From: Akkermansiaceae bacterium
GTDB taxonomy: Bacteria > Verrucomicrobiota > Verrucomicrobiia > Verrucomicrobiales > Akkermansiaceae
DNA: 44,819 bases
Reading direction: 5' to 3'
NCBI GenBank assembly: GCA_947491475.1
Contig: CANLKN010000022.1
Location: forward strand, 1 to 44,819
Positions 12,345 through 33,579 of the stretch are shown piece after piece. Under the pieces are notes generated by a model, which saw only the letters and a list, made by a program, of their open reading frames with translations, did no database searches and was not told where the DNA came from. The translations under genes were made by a program, and so were the position numbers. The number at the start of each line of letters is the position of its first letter. Position 1 is the first letter of the stretch.

Positions 12345-13097
12345 ATGGCCGGTCACAACAAGTGGTCCAAGGTAAAGCATATCAAGGCGAGAGTCGATGC
12401 CATCAAAGGCCGGGTCTTCAGCAAGTGTGCCCATGAAATCGCCCTGGCGGCACGCGCCGGCGGCGGCGATTCAGGAGCAAACGCCCGCCTCCGCACCGCC
12501 ATCGACAATGCCAAGGCGGTCTCCATGCCCAAGGAAAACATCGAGCGTGCCATCAAAAAAGGCACCGGCGAACTGGGCGGCGAGGCGATTCAGGAAGTGG
12601 CCTACGAAGGCTACGGCCCCGCAGGCATCGCCTTCATCGTGGAAATGGCCACCGACAATCTGAACCGCTCAGCCGCTGACGTCCGCTCGATTTTCACCAA
12701 GAACCACGGCAGCGTGGCCACGCAGGGCAGCGTCTCCTATCAATTCGACCGCAAGGGCGAGATTCGCATCCCGGCGGATGCGCTCGGTGAAGAACAGCTC
12801 ATGGAAGCAGCCATCGAAGCGGGTGCGGATGACGTCCAGCCCGATGCCGAGGAGCACATCATCCACACCGCTCCCAACGAGTTGGGCACGGTGGCCAAAA
12901 CCCTGCGCGATGCCGGCCTGCACATCGCTTCCGAAAAAATGGTCTCCATCGCCCAAAATCCCGGCATGGTCACCGATCTGGCCATCGCCCGCCAAATCAT
13001 GAAACTTTACGACCAGTTGGACGATTACCCGGACACCGTGAACGTCTTCACCAACTTCGAGGTCGCCGATGAAATTCTCGACCAACTCGACACGTGA
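12345..13097 (+). CDS. yebC: YebC/PmpR/TACO1-family protein
   Basis: The protein has 250 residues starting at the strongly conserved MAGHNKWSKVKHIK; the frame extends upstream but this start is diagnostic. The remainder (KCAHEIALAARAGGGDSGAN, PKENIERAIKKGTGE, FTKNHGSVATQGSV) is typical. The family was long described as transcriptional regulators; some members have been linked to helping ribosomes translate proline stretches or the mitochondrial COX1 message. It lies 46 bp upstream of rho on the same strand. Confidence 0.95.
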   Translation: MAGHNKWSKVKHIKARVDAIKGRVFSKCAHEIALAARAGGGDSGANARLRTAIDNAKAVSMPKENIERAIKKGTGELGGEAIQEVAYEGYGPAGIAFIVEMATDNLNRSAADVRSIFTKNHGSVATQGSVSYQFDRKGEIRIPADALGEEQLMEAAIEAGADDVQPDAEEHIIHTAPNELGTVAKTLRDAGLHIASEKMVSIAQNPGMVTDLAIARQIMKLYDQLDDYPDTVNVFTNFEVADEILDQLDT

Positions 13098-13143
13098 GCC
13101 GCAATCCGCGCCACCTGTCACCCAGTATTTTCCCCGACTCAGA

Positions 13144-14955
13144 ATGAGCACCCAAACCAACGAGGACCCCCAGCCGCTAATCCCTGCCGGCACTGATGAA
13201 GCCGTGAAGCCCGCACGCAAGCGGACCGCGAAAAAAACCACTACCAAGGTGGCCGCTAAAAAAGTGACTGCGAAAAAAGCCGCCAAAAAAGCGGCAAAAC
13301 CTGCGCCTGATCCCGAATTTTCCTCGATTCCAACCATCGACGAACCCGCTCCACCGAAAAAGAAAACCGCGCGGGTAAAAAAAGCCGCTGCCGATGACAC
13401 TCCGCCAATCCCGGCGGCCGTTCCCGAGCGGCAGGAGCCCGAGCAAGTAACCGCGGCACCGCAAGCAGAACGGCGATTCGGCCGCGTTCCGGGCGGCGGG
13501 CCGCGAGTTCTGCGCGAGGCCACTCCTCCACAAGTTCCACCCGCATCCGCCACCAGCGAGCCACCCACGCAGGAAACAGGGCAGGGTGGGGGCCAAAACC
13601 GCGATGGCCAACAACCACGCGAGAGCCGCAGCAAGCGCCGCCGCGAAAAACGCAAACGCCGCAACGAACACCGCCAAGGGCATGGACCCCACCAAGGGCA
13701 TGGACCCCACCAAGGCCAGGGGCCGAATCCGGTCCAACGCCAAGGACACAGCCCTCATCCGCATGGCGGCCGCCCGAATCAAGTTACCGATTCCCAGCCT
13801 GCCGACTTCAACGAGCGCCGCCAGGAGCAGGCACCCAGCGGTCCGAAAATCGAAACCGACGGCATGCTCGAGCTCGCGCCCAAAGGTTTCGGTTTCCTGC
13901 GCATTCCCGGCAAGAATTTCGAGCAGGCGCGCGATGATGTTTTTGTCACTCCGGAAACCATCCGCAAGTTCCACCTCCGGCTCGGCCAGTGGGTGCACGG
14001 CCTCTATCAGATCGGCCCGCGCGGGGCGCAGTTGGTCGAGGTCAGCGCCATCAATGGCATGACTCCCGAGGAAGCTTCCAAGCTGCCGCACTTTGATGAA
14101 CTCAAGGCGATCAACCCGGCCAGGCGCATCAGTTTCGAAACCACACCCGAGCGCTTCACCACCCGCGTGGTGGACATCATCGCTCCCGTCGGACGCGGTC
14201 AGCGCGGGCTGATCGTTTCGCCGCCGCGTTCCGGAAAAACCACCTTGCTGCTCCACATGGCGGAGGCAATTCGCGAAAAATACGACGAAGCCATCCACCT
14301 GATGGTTTTGTTAGTGGATGAGCGGCCGGAGGAAGTCACCGAGTTCCGCCGTGCTCTGCCCGGCGCGGAAATTTATGCCAGTTCCAATGACGAGCAGCCG
14401 CGCAACCACTGCCGCATCGCCGAGCTTGCCATCGAGCGCGCCAAGCGTCTGGTGGAAGCCGGCAAGGATGTTTTCCTGCTGATGGATTCCATCACCCGCC
14501 TGGCCCGCGCCTACAACAACAACATGAGCAATGCCCGCGGCCGTGGCACCGGTTCGGGCGGCATCACCATCGGCGCGCTTGAAGTGCCGCGCCGTCTATT
14601 CGCCGCCGCCCGCAACACCCGCGGCGGAGGATCGCTCACCATCATGGCCACCGCCCTGATCCAGACGAACTCGCGCGCAGACGAGGCGATCTTCATGGAG
14701 TTCAAGGGCACCGGCAACATGGAGCTCGTGCTCGACCGCAAGATCGCGGAAAATTACATCTATCCGGCAGTGGACATCTTCAAGTCCGGCACCCGCCGCG
14801 AGGAAATCCTCATTCCTGACCACATGCTCCACAAGATCCACCTAATCCGCCGCGGCCTCTCTGGCCACCGGCCGGTGGAGGCGATGGAGCGGCTTTTGTT
14901 CTTCCTGAAGAAGTTTTCGAACAACCCGCAGATGCTGCTGGAGATCAAGGGCTGA
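13144..14955 (+). CDS. rho: Transcription termination factor Rho with long N-terminal extension
   Basis: The 603-residue protein starts at ATG 13144; an upstream extension would overlap yebC. Residues 1-235 are low complexity: a Lys/Ala block resembling histone H1 tails (about 25-52, 72-83), an Arg/Lys cluster (163-173) and repeats of GHGPHQ encoded by an 18-bp tandem repeat (13681-13716). The cold-shock-like RNA-binding domain begins with LAPKGFGFLR. The ATPase core has Walker A PPRSGKT, DERPEEVTEF and the Q/R-loop region GGSLTIMATALI. The usual N-terminal helix bundle is not evident. E. coli Rho has 419 residues, so the extension is large; it may bind RNA nonspecifically or drive condensation, as inferred for other disordered Rho tails. 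Confidence 0.96.
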   Translation: MSTQTNEDPQPLIPAGTDEAVKPARKRTAKKTTTKVAAKKVTAKKAAKKAAKPAPDPEFSSIPTIDEPAPPKKKTARVKKAAADDTPPIPAAVPERQEPEQVTAAPQAERRFGRVPGGGPRVLREATPPQVPPASATSEPPTQETGQGGGQNRDGQQPRESRSKRRREKRKRRNEHRQGHGPHQGHGPHQGQGPNPVQRQGHSPHPHGGRPNQVTDSQPADFNERRQEQAPSGPKIETDGMLELAPKGFGFLRIPGKNFEQARDDVFVTPETIRKFHLRLGQWVHGLYQIGPRGAQLVEVSAINGMTPEEASKLPHFDELKAINPARRISFETTPERFTTRVVDIIAPVGRGQRGLIVSPPRSGKTTLLLHMAEAIREKYDEAIHLMVLLVDERPEEVTEFRRALPGAEIYASSNDEQPRNHCRIAELAIERAKRLVEAGKDVFLLMDSITRLARAYNNNMSNARGRGTGSGGITIGALEVPRRLFAAARNTRGGGSLTIMATALIQTNSRADEAIFMEFKGTGNMELVLDRKIAENYIYPAVDIFKSGTRREEILIPDHMLHKIHLIRRGLSGHRPVEAMERLLFFLKKFSNNPQMLLEIKG

Positions 14956-15322: not shown

Positions 15323-16210
15323 ATGCGGTTGCAGTTGCCCGAGCGCGAGATCGAGTTTCCCCGCCGTCCACTGGTGATGGGGATCGTGAATGTGAACGAT
15401 GATTCGTTTTCCGGCGATGGAACGCTGGATTTCGCTGCGGCGCTGGAGCAGGCGCGTAGTCAGGCGCGGGCCGGGGCGGACGTGATCGATGTGGGCGCGG
15501 AGAGTGCGCGGACCAATCGCGAGGCGGTATCGGAAGCGGAGGAAATCCGCCGTTTTGCGGGATTTTTGGAATGTTGGGAAGATGTCTGGCAGGGAGTTGA
15601 GCCGCGCGATGGGGCGCAGGTCTGGCCGCCCATCCTCTCTGCAAACACCTGGCGTCCCGGCGTGGTGAAGGCTGTGTTGCGGATGGGGAAAGTGGAAATC
15701 ATCAACGACATGGGTGCGCTGCCGGACGACCGCAATGCACGGCTTTGTGCGACTCACCGCTCCGCGCTGCTCATCATGCACAGCATCGGCGAGCCCAAGA
15801 TCCCGCATCTGCACCAGCAATGGCCCGACGTGATGGGTGCGATGGAGCGGTTTTTTGAGGAGAAACTCTCACTCGCCACTCAAGCAGGGCTGCCGGAGGA
15901 CGCGGTGTTGTTGGATCCGGGTATCGATTTTGCGAAGCAGCGCGATGACAATCTAACGGTCTATCGGGATTTGGCGCGTCTGCAAAAATTCGACCGACCG
16001 GTGCTGGTGCCGGTATCGCGCAAAACGGTGATCGGCGAAGTGCTCGGCCTGCCGGATTCCCGCGAGCGTGACGCCGGGACCATCGCCTGCATCGCCGCCG
16101 CGATGGAACGCGGGGCACAGATGTTCCGTGTGCATGACGTGGACGCCGCGTGGCAGGCGGTGAAAGTGCTGCACGCGCTGGCATGTGAGCCCAATCACTC
16201 CGATCCGTGA
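15323..16210 (+). CDS. Dihydropteroate synthase-like protein with altered pterin/pABA motifs
   Basis: The 295-residue protein has the pterin-binding TIM-barrel layout: MGIVNVNDDSFSGDG (usual NVTPDSFSDGG), DVGAESARTN (usual DxGGESTRPG), SANTWRP (usual SVDTxxP), INDMGAL, LLDPGIDFAKQRDDN, SRKTVIG and a final MFRVHDV. The Asp, Lys and Arg-x-His positions that hold the pterin and pyrophosphate late in the barrel are kept, but the Asp of SVDT is Asn and the Thr of ESTR is Ala, positions next to pterin and pABA in known enzymes. It may be a genuine FolP with relaxed motifs or a related pterin-using enzyme. No other folate gene is nearby. Confidence 0.8.
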   Translation: MRLQLPEREIEFPRRPLVMGIVNVNDDSFSGDGTLDFAAALEQARSQARAGADVIDVGAESARTNREAVSEAEEIRRFAGFLECWEDVWQGVEPRDGAQVWPPILSANTWRPGVVKAVLRMGKVEIINDMGALPDDRNARLCATHRSALLIMHSIGEPKIPHLHQQWPDVMGAMERFFEEKLSLATQAGLPEDAVLLDPGIDFAKQRDDNLTVYRDLARLQKFDRPVLVPVSRKTVIGEVLGLPDSRERDAGTIACIAAAMERGAQMFRVHDVDAAWQAVKVLHALACEPNHSDP

Positions 16211-22059: not shown

Positions 22060-23412
22060 ATGCAGGCCATGACAGGTCGGGAAATCAAGGAGGTGCTGGA
22101 TCGTGCGGGTGTTTTGCCGAGCAAACAACTCGGCCAGAATTTCCTCATCGATCCCAACATGGCGCGCTGGATCGTTTCCCAACTCGATGTTGGCGAAAAT
22201 GACGCCGTCGTCGAGGTGGGGCCCGGCACCGGCTCGCTCAGCGAGCATCTGATCGGCAAGGTGCGGCGTTTGATCCTGATCGAGTTCGATGCGCGGTTGG
22301 CGGCGGCTCTCACCGAGCGCTTCAGCGGGGAACCGACAGTGGAAGTTCATCACGCCGACGGCGTGAAGTTCGATGGCCGCACGCTTTTCAAGCATCGGCC
22401 GGTGAAGTTTTTGGGAAACCTTCCCTATTCGTGTGGCGGGGCGATTTTGAAAAATCTTCTCACGCGCCCGCATCCTTTCGAGCGGGCGGTGGTGATGTTG
22501 CAGAAGGAAGTGATCGAGCGCCTTGCAGCGAAACCGGGCACCAAGGACTATGGCATTCTATCGCTGCGGACGCAGGTGGACTGGGTGGTGGAGCCGCAAC
22601 GCACGGTGCCGCCCGAAGCATTTCATCCGCGGCCGAAGATCGATTCGGCGGTGGCGATTCTGCATCCGCGCAGTTCGGGTTTGCCGGCATTCGACCGGCG
22701 TTTGTTCGATGAATTGATCCGGCGTGGTTTTGCGCAGCGCCGCAAGCAACTCGGTAAACAATTGCCCGCAGGCACACCCTGGCAGGAAATCGCAGCGGAT
22801 ATGAATGTTCCGGTGACTGTGCGCGCTGAGGAACTCACGCTCGATCAATGGGTGGTTCTGACCCGCGCTTGCGATGTGCATCCGCTCAAGGATCTACCTC
22901 AGAAATCCAGTGAAGTCTTTGATGTCGTGGATGCAAACGACGTGGTGATCGGACAAAAAACGCGCGATGAGGTGCATTCCGGCCAACTCCTGCACCGCGC
23001 GGTGCATGTGTTCATTTTCAACAAGCGGGGCGACATGCTTTTGCAACAGCGTTCGATGTTCAAGGACGTGCATCCCGGGATGTGGGGTTCGAGCGTTTCG
23101 GGGCATCTCGATGCCGGCGAGGACTATGACACCGCCGCCTTGCGCGAACTCGATGAGGAAATGGGCATTAAGGCGGAAAACCCGCCGGAGGAAATCGCAC
23201 GGATCGCGCCAAGTGAGGCGACGGGATGGGAACACGTCCGGCTTTACCGCATGAGCTATCATGGATCGGTTCGATATCCGGCGGCCGAGGTTTCCGCCGC
23301 GGCATGGTTTCCACTGGCTGAAATCCAAGCATGGCTCGCGGCGCGGCCGGAGGATTTTTCCAGCGGATTCATCGAGTGCTGGAATGCCGCGCAACACCTG
23401 ATCACGGCGTGA
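22060..23412 (+). CDS. RsmA (KsgA) 16S rRNA dimethyltransferase fused to a Nudix hydrolase
   Basis: This 450-residue protein has two complete enzymes. Residues about 10-272 are RsmA: QLGQNFLID, the SAM site VEVGPGTGSLS (51-61), the catalytic NLPYS (120-124), and EAFHPRPKIDSAV; this enzyme dimethylates two adjacent adenines near the 3' end of 16S rRNA. Residues about 285-448 form a Nudix domain of the YfcD/IDI-like type (FDVVDANDVVIGQKTRDEVH) with an intact Nudix box from G348 to I370 (GHLDAGE, then RELDEEMGI). RsmA alone is about 270 residues, so the Nudix part is an addition, not an insertion. Start may be ATG 22060 or ATG 22069. Confidence 0.94.
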   Translation: MQAMTGREIKEVLDRAGVLPSKQLGQNFLIDPNMARWIVSQLDVGENDAVVEVGPGTGSLSEHLIGKVRRLILIEFDARLAAALTERFSGEPTVEVHHADGVKFDGRTLFKHRPVKFLGNLPYSCGGAILKNLLTRPHPFERAVVMLQKEVIERLAAKPGTKDYGILSLRTQVDWVVEPQRTVPPEAFHPRPKIDSAVAILHPRSSGLPAFDRRLFDELIRRGFAQRRKQLGKQLPAGTPWQEIAADMNVPVTVRAEELTLDQWVVLTRACDVHPLKDLPQKSSEVFDVVDANDVVIGQKTRDEVHSGQLLHRAVHVFIFNKRGDMLLQQRSMFKDVHPGMWGSSVSGHLDAGEDYDTAALRELDEEMGIKAENPPEEIARIAPSEATGWEHVRLYRMSYHGSVRYPAAEVSAAAWFPLAEIQAWLAARPEDFSSGFIECWNAAQHLITA

Positions 23413-31537: not shown

Positions 31538-33448
31538 TCAGAGAGCGTCGAGCGTCGTCATGTCTAACAATTTCTCGTAATCTTCGAGCGTGCCGCCGGA
31601 AAGGCAGCATTCGATGATTTTCCGGCCGGTGGGCAACAGGTCGGGCACGAGGAATTGTGGCAGTTCCTGATGGAAGAAGTCATCGAGAATTTCCGCGCCG
31701 CGATCATAGGCAGCGGGGCCGACTTCCGGTTGTTGGTCAACTTCGAAAAACCAGACGCCGAGGGTGCGGCCTTCCATCACGATCTTGCGCGGAGTATAAC
31801 CTAACAGCGGGCAGCGTGAGGGTTTCATCTGCTTTTCGGTGAAACGTGCGCCACCTCGGCGGGCAAGGTATTCACGGGTGATCCACTGCGGCATGAAGCC
31901 GACTTCCCACGCGCCGATGTGTTGGTTGGGGATGAGGACGTAGCGGACTTCCGGCGTCTCAATAATCTGGCTGAGCAGCAGGTTGGCATGATCTACGCGG
32001 CGGCCGGTGGCGAATGGCCAGTAGGAGCCGACCCCCTCGGAGGACATGCCCTCGGTGGCGACGATGCTAGGGTTTGCATGGCCGCGCGGGGCGACAAGCC
32101 GCCATAGCCAGGCAAGCGCAGGCGGCAGCAGGTGGAACATGCCGATAATGCCATAACTCGGCATCTCCGCAGTGCACGGCGGAGTGCGCACACCCATGCT
32201 GCGTATGTCCACGTCCACCGGACCTTTGATCACACCAGGAACGATGGCGCGGGGGATGATGACACGTGGGTTGGGGCAGGGTATCCCGGGTTCGTCCTCG
32301 GTGTGTTCCCAGATCAGCGAGGTGGCGCCGGGTTGGCCTTGCACGTTGAGGAAAAGCAGCGGCTCGGGCGGGTGGGTGGTGAGTTTCTCCAGATGCGGAT
32401 CCACACCATAATTCTCGATATGGTTGATGCGCACGAACCATGCGTCTTCAGCATCCACCAGACTGAGTTTGCCGCGGCCTTTTTCGAGCGTGGGATGGCA
32501 GAGCGCCATGTCGTCGGTTACCGGGCGCAGGTCGCATCCGCGCGGGAGCGTAAGGTGGCGCTGGTCGCCGTTGACGAGGTTGCGCCCGATGAGCAGCGAG
32601 CCGTCCGCCTGGCGGTGGGGATGCTCCAGCATCTCGCTCTTGCCGCCGCCGCTGGCACCTTCGTGGGAAATGACGATTTTATTGTCATATGGCGTGATAA
32701 CCTGGACCGTCGAGCAATGCATGGTGATCCAGTGCTCGGCTTCGCCGATGTTGAGCAACACGCCATAAATGCCCTTCTTGGCGCTGGGGCCTGGGTAAAG
32801 ATTGTAGCTGAAAAGCTCGTGAGCGGATTTCAAGCGGTTGTGAACCACCACCTGGCGGCCTTCGAAATGGGTGTGACGGAATGGCGGAGCTACGTAAATC
32901 ACCGCTCGCGGAGAGAAGTTTTCCGGCAACTCCTCCGGCTTGAGAATGCCCTGCAGCATCGAGAGTCCCAATGCAAAGAATCCGGCGTTGGCTGGGGCGA
33001 TGACCAGCGCGTCGGTGCCCTTGCCAACCATGCCCGCGTAGAAGGGAAACACCGCGAGATCCTGGGTCTTGAGCCAGGCGAAGGTTTCCTCGCGCAAGCT
33101 GGCGAAACTGCCGCCGAAACGTTCTTGGAAGGTCGGCTTGTCGGTCGGCAGTTCGTCGCCGATGACCATACAGTCCGGATCGCGGCGGCGCATGTAGGGT
33201 TCGAGGTAGTTGGCGTTGATGCCGTTTTTTGCACGGCAGACGCGGGCTTCGACGATCTGGCCCTTGCCGGGCACTTCGTAGGATACCTCATGCCAGCCAT
33301 CCACTTCATCGCGAACGGAAAGTTCCACCAACTGGCTGCTGGAGGTGGCCACCGTCACCGACGGCGCGGCATCGAGCACGGCGGCGGCTTCGGGCGGTAT
33401 GGGAAATGACAGGGATTTGCAGGTAATGTGAGTCGGATTCTTCTTCAT
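31538..33448 (-). CDS. DUF4914-family protein (PEPCK-like P-loop)
   Basis: From ATG 33448 the protein has 636 residues; the extra upstream frame lies in the shared control region and contains no protein-like sequence. A glycine-rich nucleotide-binding loop, SHEGASGGGKSEMLEHPHR, sits near 263-281, as in the PEPCK-type fold. Other conserved-looking stretches are FPFYAGMVGKGTDALVIAP, NLYPGPSAKKGIYGVLLNIG and SEGVGSYWPFATGRRVDHAN. I recognise the family as DUF4914; a kinase or carboxykinase-like reaction is plausible from the loop but unproven. It is divergent from a PocR-AraC regulator that probably controls it. Confidence 0.8.
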   Translation of the reverse strand: MKKNPTHITCKSLSFPIPPEAAAVLDAAPSVTVATSSSQLVELSVRDEVDGWHEVSYEVPGKGQIVEARVCRAKNGINANYLEPYMRRRDPDCMVIGDELPTDKPTFQERFGGSFASLREETFAWLKTQDLAVFPFYAGMVGKGTDALVIAPANAGFFALGLSMLQGILKPEELPENFSPRAVIYVAPPFRHTHFEGRQVVVHNRLKSAHELFSYNLYPGPSAKKGIYGVLLNIGEAEHWITMHCSTVQVITPYDNKIVISHEGASGGGKSEMLEHPHRQADGSLLIGRNLVNGDQRHLTLPRGCDLRPVTDDMALCHPTLEKGRGKLSLVDAEDAWFVRINHIENYGVDPHLEKLTTHPPEPLLFLNVQGQPGATSLIWEHTEDEPGIPCPNPRVIIPRAIVPGVIKGPVDVDIRSMGVRTPPCTAEMPSYGIIGMFHLLPPALAWLWRLVAPRGHANPSIVATEGMSSEGVGSYWPFATGRRVDHANLLLSQIIETPEVRYVLIPNQHIGAWEVGFMPQWITREYLARRGGARFTEKQMKPSRCPLLGYTPRKIVMEGRTLGVWFFEVDQQPEVGPAAYDRGAEILDDFFHQELPQFLVPDLLPTGRKIIECCLSGGTLEDYEKLLDMTTLDAL

Positions 33449-33555
33449 AACAGTGTGTGTCTTGGTGATTTGCCGGCGCAGATGCCTGCGGCAGCGATGA
33501 CGGCAGGGTGGGAGAGCCCTGATGGCGGGGCGTCGCAGTAAACAGGTTTTTATTC

Positions 33556-33579
33556 GCATTTTATGATGTCATTTAATGC
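33556..33579. promoter_or_regulatory. Candidate AraC-type operator (imperfect 24-bp palindrome)
   Basis: GCATTTTATGA-TG-TCATTTAATGC is an inverted repeat matching at 9 of 11 arm positions, in an AT-rich stretch between the divergent DUF4914 and AraC genes. It covers the first possible ATG of the AraC gene (33576), which argues for the downstream start at 33606. Confidence 0.5.

Follow-up and report, generated by a model that had tools for sequence, protein, structure and literature searches.

The gene at positions 22060..23412 (+ strand) of the window, the 44,819-nucleotide stretch of Akkermansiaceae DNA analysed here, encodes a single polypeptide in which RsmA (KsgA) is joined to a Nudix domain, and is best explained as encoding a housekeeping protein of the class that holds the Akkermansiaceae (Verrucomicrobiota). 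The protein is rather likely to be bifunctional, an RsmA and a metal-dependent diphosphate hydrolase tethered by the repeated joining of neighbouring genes, with reactions that are otherwise probably independent.

From its ATG start the frame runs without internal stop for 450 aa, the stop codon being included in the coordinates, and both domains are complete within it, as had been proposed from the sequence alone. A complete RsmA/KsgA occupies residues ~1-271 (Pfam RrnaAD, residues 22-265, 22123..22854, E 5e-52), and the full Nudix fold, as delimited by Pfam and the structural model, residues ~285-449 (22912..23406), of which residues 311-428 form the Pfam NUDIX core (22990-23343, E 8e-19); these features, and those given below, lie on the + strand. 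Both Pfam scores are well above the curated cut-offs, and the 216.8 bits obtained against the NCBIfam ksgA model TIGR00755 pass the RsmA/KsgA equivalog threshold of 171. The two catalytic sets are likewise intact, as the sequence-only reading had stated: the NLPYS motif of adenine-N6 dimethyltransferases stands at residues 120-124 (22417..22431), and a Nudix box, GX5EX7REUXEEXGU, runs from G348 to I370 (23101..23169). An AlphaFold2 model of the whole fusion, made with 41 aligned fused proteins, gave a mean pLDDT of 94.7 and a pTM of 0.90 (96.2 and 0.91 for the Nudix half modelled alone), and placed a linker (22873..22914) between the RsmA helix at residues 261-271 and the Nudix strand at 286-290. 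The best fold matches to this model were RsmA/KsgA structures (B. subtilis KsgA, 6IFT; KsgA on the small subunit, 7O5H), from which the fusion differs by its extra C-terminal Nudix domain of ~165 residues; among the structure matches listed, no solved chain matched both the RsmA and the Nudix part. No second RsmA match was found in the window's genome at E <= 0.001.

In order to gauge how widespread the architecture is, as the sequence-only reading had proposed, related genomes were examined; 96 of the 97 genomes of the window's family, single-contig genomes included, encode the two domains in a single open frame. The 97th (G020) holds only a fragment, which begins at base 61 of its contig, and in G003 the fusion match reaches only residue 413. 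The possibility of a stop or frameshift overlooked between residues 272 and 285, against which the earlier reading had cautioned, is therefore not borne out. Across the class, 106 of 285 genomes, from 15 of 59 families, carry the fused form, and in three class genomes (G098, G276, G349) the alignment spans both genes with one stop between them. The 0.9-Mb genomes G112 and G120 have two NUDIX matches each, one of which is the fusion, indicating that the Nudix domain survives genome reduction. The companion caution, that most relatives would have separate genes, was half right, for in much of the class the two genes stand apart or are no more than neighbours. A tblastn comparison with named contigs found both domains in one frame in 80 of 80, these being the best 80 of 456 relatives and so near relatives by design rather than a sample of the class; a scan with motif patterns recovered both motifs in 71 of the 80, the other nine missing one pattern. 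Among the same best 80 of 456, the contigs closest to the window's Nudix domain belonged to Akkermansiaceae and other Verrucomicrobiota. No fusion was visible in genomes of the phylum outside the class, where the best match reached 9.5e-54 whereas even the weakest fused row within the class had 7.2e-75, a comparison that a very divergent fusion could escape. Two observations stand apart from these counts: G090 carries, besides its fusion, a second and standalone Nudix copy (G090:C1:95379-95771) with 57% identity to residues 309-437, and three genomes of 94-96% completeness (G195, G235, G266), two of which are the sole f49 genomes in the class draw, are without a clear RsmA match.

The architecture has been recorded before. 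An Akkermansia 'dimethyladenosine transferase' of 450 aa, with the domains 'ksgA, NUDIX hydrolase', has the same composition and length (PMC3861447, in the part available), and in that paper the words KsgA, Nudix and dimethyladenosine occur once each, all in one row of an annotation table. The passages available of PMC6886795 have nothing on a fusion. No functional description of an RsmA-Nudix fusion was found in the literature, searched largely without subscription papers; the sequence-only reading thus holds in knowing of no described function, but the architecture itself was already on record in PMC3861447, as far as that source was available.

Where the two genes are not fused, they are often neighbours. 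The DNA around the Nudix gene was inspected in 114 loci, the window included, which were picked by family and by match, so that the shares that follow are no estimate for the class: 35 were fused, 24 adjacent (ksgA upstream, both genes in the same orientation), two near on opposite strands, and 53 without ksgA in the stretch, a number on which it bears that a few of the 114 stretches stop at a contig end. The adjacent loci represent 23 genomes of 20 families, L050 and L188 being the same gene; ksgA and the Nudix gene overlap by 4 bases in three of them (L189, L193, L195), and in the others the matched parts lie at most a few hundred bases apart. Elsewhere in the class the Nudix gene occurs by itself, and the 53 loci without a nearby ksgA indicate that linkage is dispensable for function there. 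In some genomes of few contigs (G228, G169, G265), KsgA is present but the Nudix search yielded no match at E <= 0.001. The association of ksgA with the Nudix gene is nonetheless a lasting one, fused or adjacent across many families. Neighbour clustering around ksgA-nudix revealed no partner common to all families. In L016 and L022, a separate gene adjoining the fusion carries what we take to be an RppH-like Nudix box; the idea of an RNA 5' pyrophosphatase (RppH) role for the Nudix half was put aside. Elsewhere in the window, a Rho-like gene (13069-14955, + strand, 628 aa) extends at its N-terminus ~210 residues beyond the Rho model, the match to which begins at residue 253 and model position 41, and a 673-aa protein (31538-33559, - strand) consists almost entirely of DUF4914 (1044 bits).

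To follow the history of the fusion, a tree was built from the combined RsmA and Nudix columns, without the linker, of 96 rows, of which 35 are fused, 36 apart, 23 adjacent and 2 near; it is a quick tree with SH-aLRT support only, in which 32 of 92 inner branches are weak (drawn open). On it the fused label changes four times, compared with a mean of 28.9 when labels were shuffled, and the starred branches force all four changes. Constraining the fused rows to a single clade lowered the log-likelihood by 403 and was rejected by the AU test (p-AU 9.3e-5). The fused state has thus arisen or broken more than once. While 31 rows form one large, wholly fused clade, the other four fused rows belong to families f3, f30 and f18, and their sisters are adjacent pairs of f11, f30 and f52; counts of changes cannot separate fusion from fission, or gain from loss, but because these sisters are adjacent pairs, repeated joining is the simpler reading for the three families. 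Neighbouring ksgA and Nudix genes probably became one frame several times, the direction being our reading of the observed pattern.

Both active sites are strongly conserved among fused proteins. In the 41 that were aligned, N120, L121, P122 and Y123 are invariant, as are E52, G54, G56 and D100 (the SAM-binding glycines and accompanying residues). On the Nudix side, R362, E363, E366, E367, H306, H312, H349 and E391 do not vary in any of the 41 fused rows or of the 24 mixed Nudix rows of three kinds, two sets that overlap in some proteins, and E354 is Glu in all 24 mixed rows and in 39 fused rows, the other two having Cys and Asp. H306, H312, H349 and E391 presumably correspond to the metal-site ligands of type I isopentenyl diphosphate (IPP) isomerase (IDI), and R331 and K335, likewise constant in all 41 fused rows, presumably to its diphosphate-binding residues. 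Residue 347, aligned to the catalytic cysteine of IDI, is by contrast Ala in 30 of the 41 and Ser in the other 11; the fusion's Nudix family lacks the stretch that holds a second IDI glutamate, and opposite the IDI Trp stands residue 431, which varies among fused proteins. As judged from these alignments, the Nudix half looks like a hydrolase that retains much of an isomerase-like metal set, and the combination of a full box and IDI-like His/Glu residues with the loss of the isomerase cysteine makes diphosphate hydrolysis its most likely reaction.

Comparison with solved structures agrees with the YfcD/IDI-like Nudix type assigned at the outset. The nearest solved fold to the Nudix half is that of E. 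coli YfcD (2FKB; Z 24.1, 28% identity, profile E 7e-30), a standalone protein which, in the printed alignment, has only the His at 312 among positions 306, 312, 349 and 391. Deinococcus radiodurans DR_0079 (2O5F; Z 22.5), also standalone and of the same Nudix subgroup, has none of the four in its printed alignment; in the part of PMC5389931 available, it is termed a pyrimidine nucleoside triphosphate diphosphatase, with a Nudix box that terminates in Asn. The fold is shared too with IDI itself (1HX3, 1NFS; Z 22.6). Matches to the corresponding models all fall below their cut-offs: 74 bits against 152 for the YfcD equivalog PRK15393, and, for IDI, 81.5 against 127 (PRK03759) and 68.1 against 105.8 bits (TIGR02150).

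We reasoned from family membership that the N-terminal half would act as an ordinary RsmA/KsgA, dimethylating A1518 and A1519 in helix 45 of the 16S rRNA on the pre-30S particle. The C-terminal half belongs with the IDI/YfcD/DR_0079 group of Nudix enzymes and, dependent on metal, most likely splits a small-molecule diphosphate. Loss of the stop between neighbouring ksgA and Nudix genes probably produced a single reading frame several times. The tether would then supply the two activities in equimolar amounts and carry the Nudix domain wherever RsmA binds, and the two reactions would probably have little else to do with one another.

The most credible of the alternatives, though in our judgement unlikely, is that the two activities are coupled on the pre-30S particle, where the RsmA-borne Nudix domain would remove a nucleotide signal or 5' group important in late assembly, such as (p)ppGpp, Np4N or another cap, or damaged NTPs. 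The sequence-only reading had suggested a coupling of this kind, between rRNA modification and removal of a nucleotide, cap or alarmone. The lasting association of the genes, with its repeated change to or from fusion, is in its favour, as is the confident full-length model (pTM 0.90), which suggests a set arrangement of the domains; and the ksgA gene of E. coli shares an operon with apaH, which encodes an Np4N hydrolase. Among the literature matches listed for ksgA with apaH and Nudix, none mentioned ksgA. The spacing between the domains can be cited on either side: 20 of the 21 aligned f1 rows, and 24 of all 41 aligned fused proteins, have 19 aa, but the counted linker stretch (residues 268-286) ranges between clades from 10 to 24 aa. 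Coupling is further weakened by the many families in which the genes are unlinked, and by the five NUDIX matches above cut-off that the window's genome holds besides the fusion, six in all.

An alternative of slightly lower standing concerns the substrate: the Nudix half may hydrolyse isopentenyl, dimethylallyl or another prenyl diphosphate, with the IDI pocket partly kept and isomerisation lost along with the cysteine. In its favour is the invariance, in 41 of 41 fused rows, of the six residues aligned to those of IDI (H306, H312, H349, E391, R331, K335); in the printed alignments YfcD shares just the His at 312 among the four His/Glu, and DR_0079 shares none. The missing stretch of the second IDI glutamate and the mixed residue 431 in place of the Trp count against it, and a scan of ten recurrent neighbours turned up no recognisable isoprenoid gene. 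Slightly more doubtful than either is the proposal that the Nudix half, with its isomerase-type metal site, is a ribosome-assembly enzyme which RsmA would bring to the immature 30S to clear a nucleotide signal or 5' group within a final quality check, its tether having been selected independently several times.

A role in folate synthesis, as the dihydroneopterin-triphosphate pyrophosphatase (FolQ role), is very unlikely. The genome context does hint at pterin chemistry, through neighbouring folE2 and putative queE genes. Six of nine genomes from families f9 and f46 have the standalone Nudix gene 3' of folE2 on the same strand, and in the other three (G126, G142, G189) the stretch inspected contains no folE2; folE2 upstream on the same strand was found in six of 100 loci, all from these two families. 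In L220, L223, L231, L245, L246 and L247 the standalone Nudix match begins 8-168 bases downstream of the folE2 match, on the same strand. Thirteen loci from 11 families have a Radical_SAM gene, which we take to be queE, in the vicinity of ksgA-nudix, mostly together with a class III aminotransferase gene, the Radical_SAM assignment resting on the profile match of one member. A radical-SAM gene, a class III aminotransferase gene or both were seen near ksgA-nudix in L185, L187-L193, L195-L197, L201 and L203-L207. The retention of HPPK and DHPS in both 0.9-Mb genomes that keep the fusion (G112, G120) is also compatible with a FolQ role. An assigned FolQ is missing in most bacteria, according to the part of PMC1971073 available.

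Co-occurrence with the folate enzymes led to this role being largely rejected. HPPK is present in 261 of 285 class genomes; of the 24 without it, 13 were examined for DHPS and none reached the cut-off. These 13, of families f13/f40 and 97-100% complete, are G148, G153, G171, G194, G198, G217, G239, G244, G248, G258, G269, G278 and G302, and folate synthesis has apparently been lost in them. Ten nevertheless keep the Nudix gene, which makes a purely folate role unlikely; two (G278, G244) are without it, and for G194 the listing is silent. The Nudix box is canonical in five of the seven HPPK- and DHPS-lacking genomes inspected, and the first Glu is replaced by Asp in G258 and G217; in G306, which comes in addition to the 13, DHPS is under the cut-off and the box canonical. 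The four such genomes checked for folE2 (G171, G248, G198, G244) all have it. DHPS-like genes occur in pairs in some genomes: the window contains one ~6 kb from the fusion (15323-16210, + strand; TIGR01496, 214 bits against a cut-off of 162.6), a second one besides that elsewhere in its genome (G000:C80, 319 bits), and two above-cut-off matches were also found in G013, G236, G112 and G120.

That the Nudix half is itself a type I IPP isomerase is highly improbable, and was rejected: the common fold (Z 22.6) and the sub-cut-off IDI matches speak for it, but both model scores miss their cut-offs, Ala or Ser takes the place of the catalytic cysteine in all 41 fused rows, and the Nudix box from which E. 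coli IDI deviates (PMC5389931, in the part available) is complete in the fusion. An assembly artefact, or a recent chance read-through without function, has a negligible probability and was rejected on frame counts and residue conservation. The single stop between the genes in G098, G276 and G349 shows how little separates the two states, but one frame is kept in 96 of 97 family genomes and the catalytic residues are conserved in both halves.

KsgA is among the most conserved of rRNA-modifying enzymes, and its role in late 30S assembly has been studied mostly where it stands alone. A partner fused to KsgA through much of a class, Akkermansia included, provides a genetic handle. The mixed active site, in which IDI-type His/Glu residues accompany a hydrolase box, bears on the relation of isomerase and hydrolase within this Nudix subgroup, and the substrate of the Nudix half would tell whether ribosome maturation in the class is tied to a metabolite.
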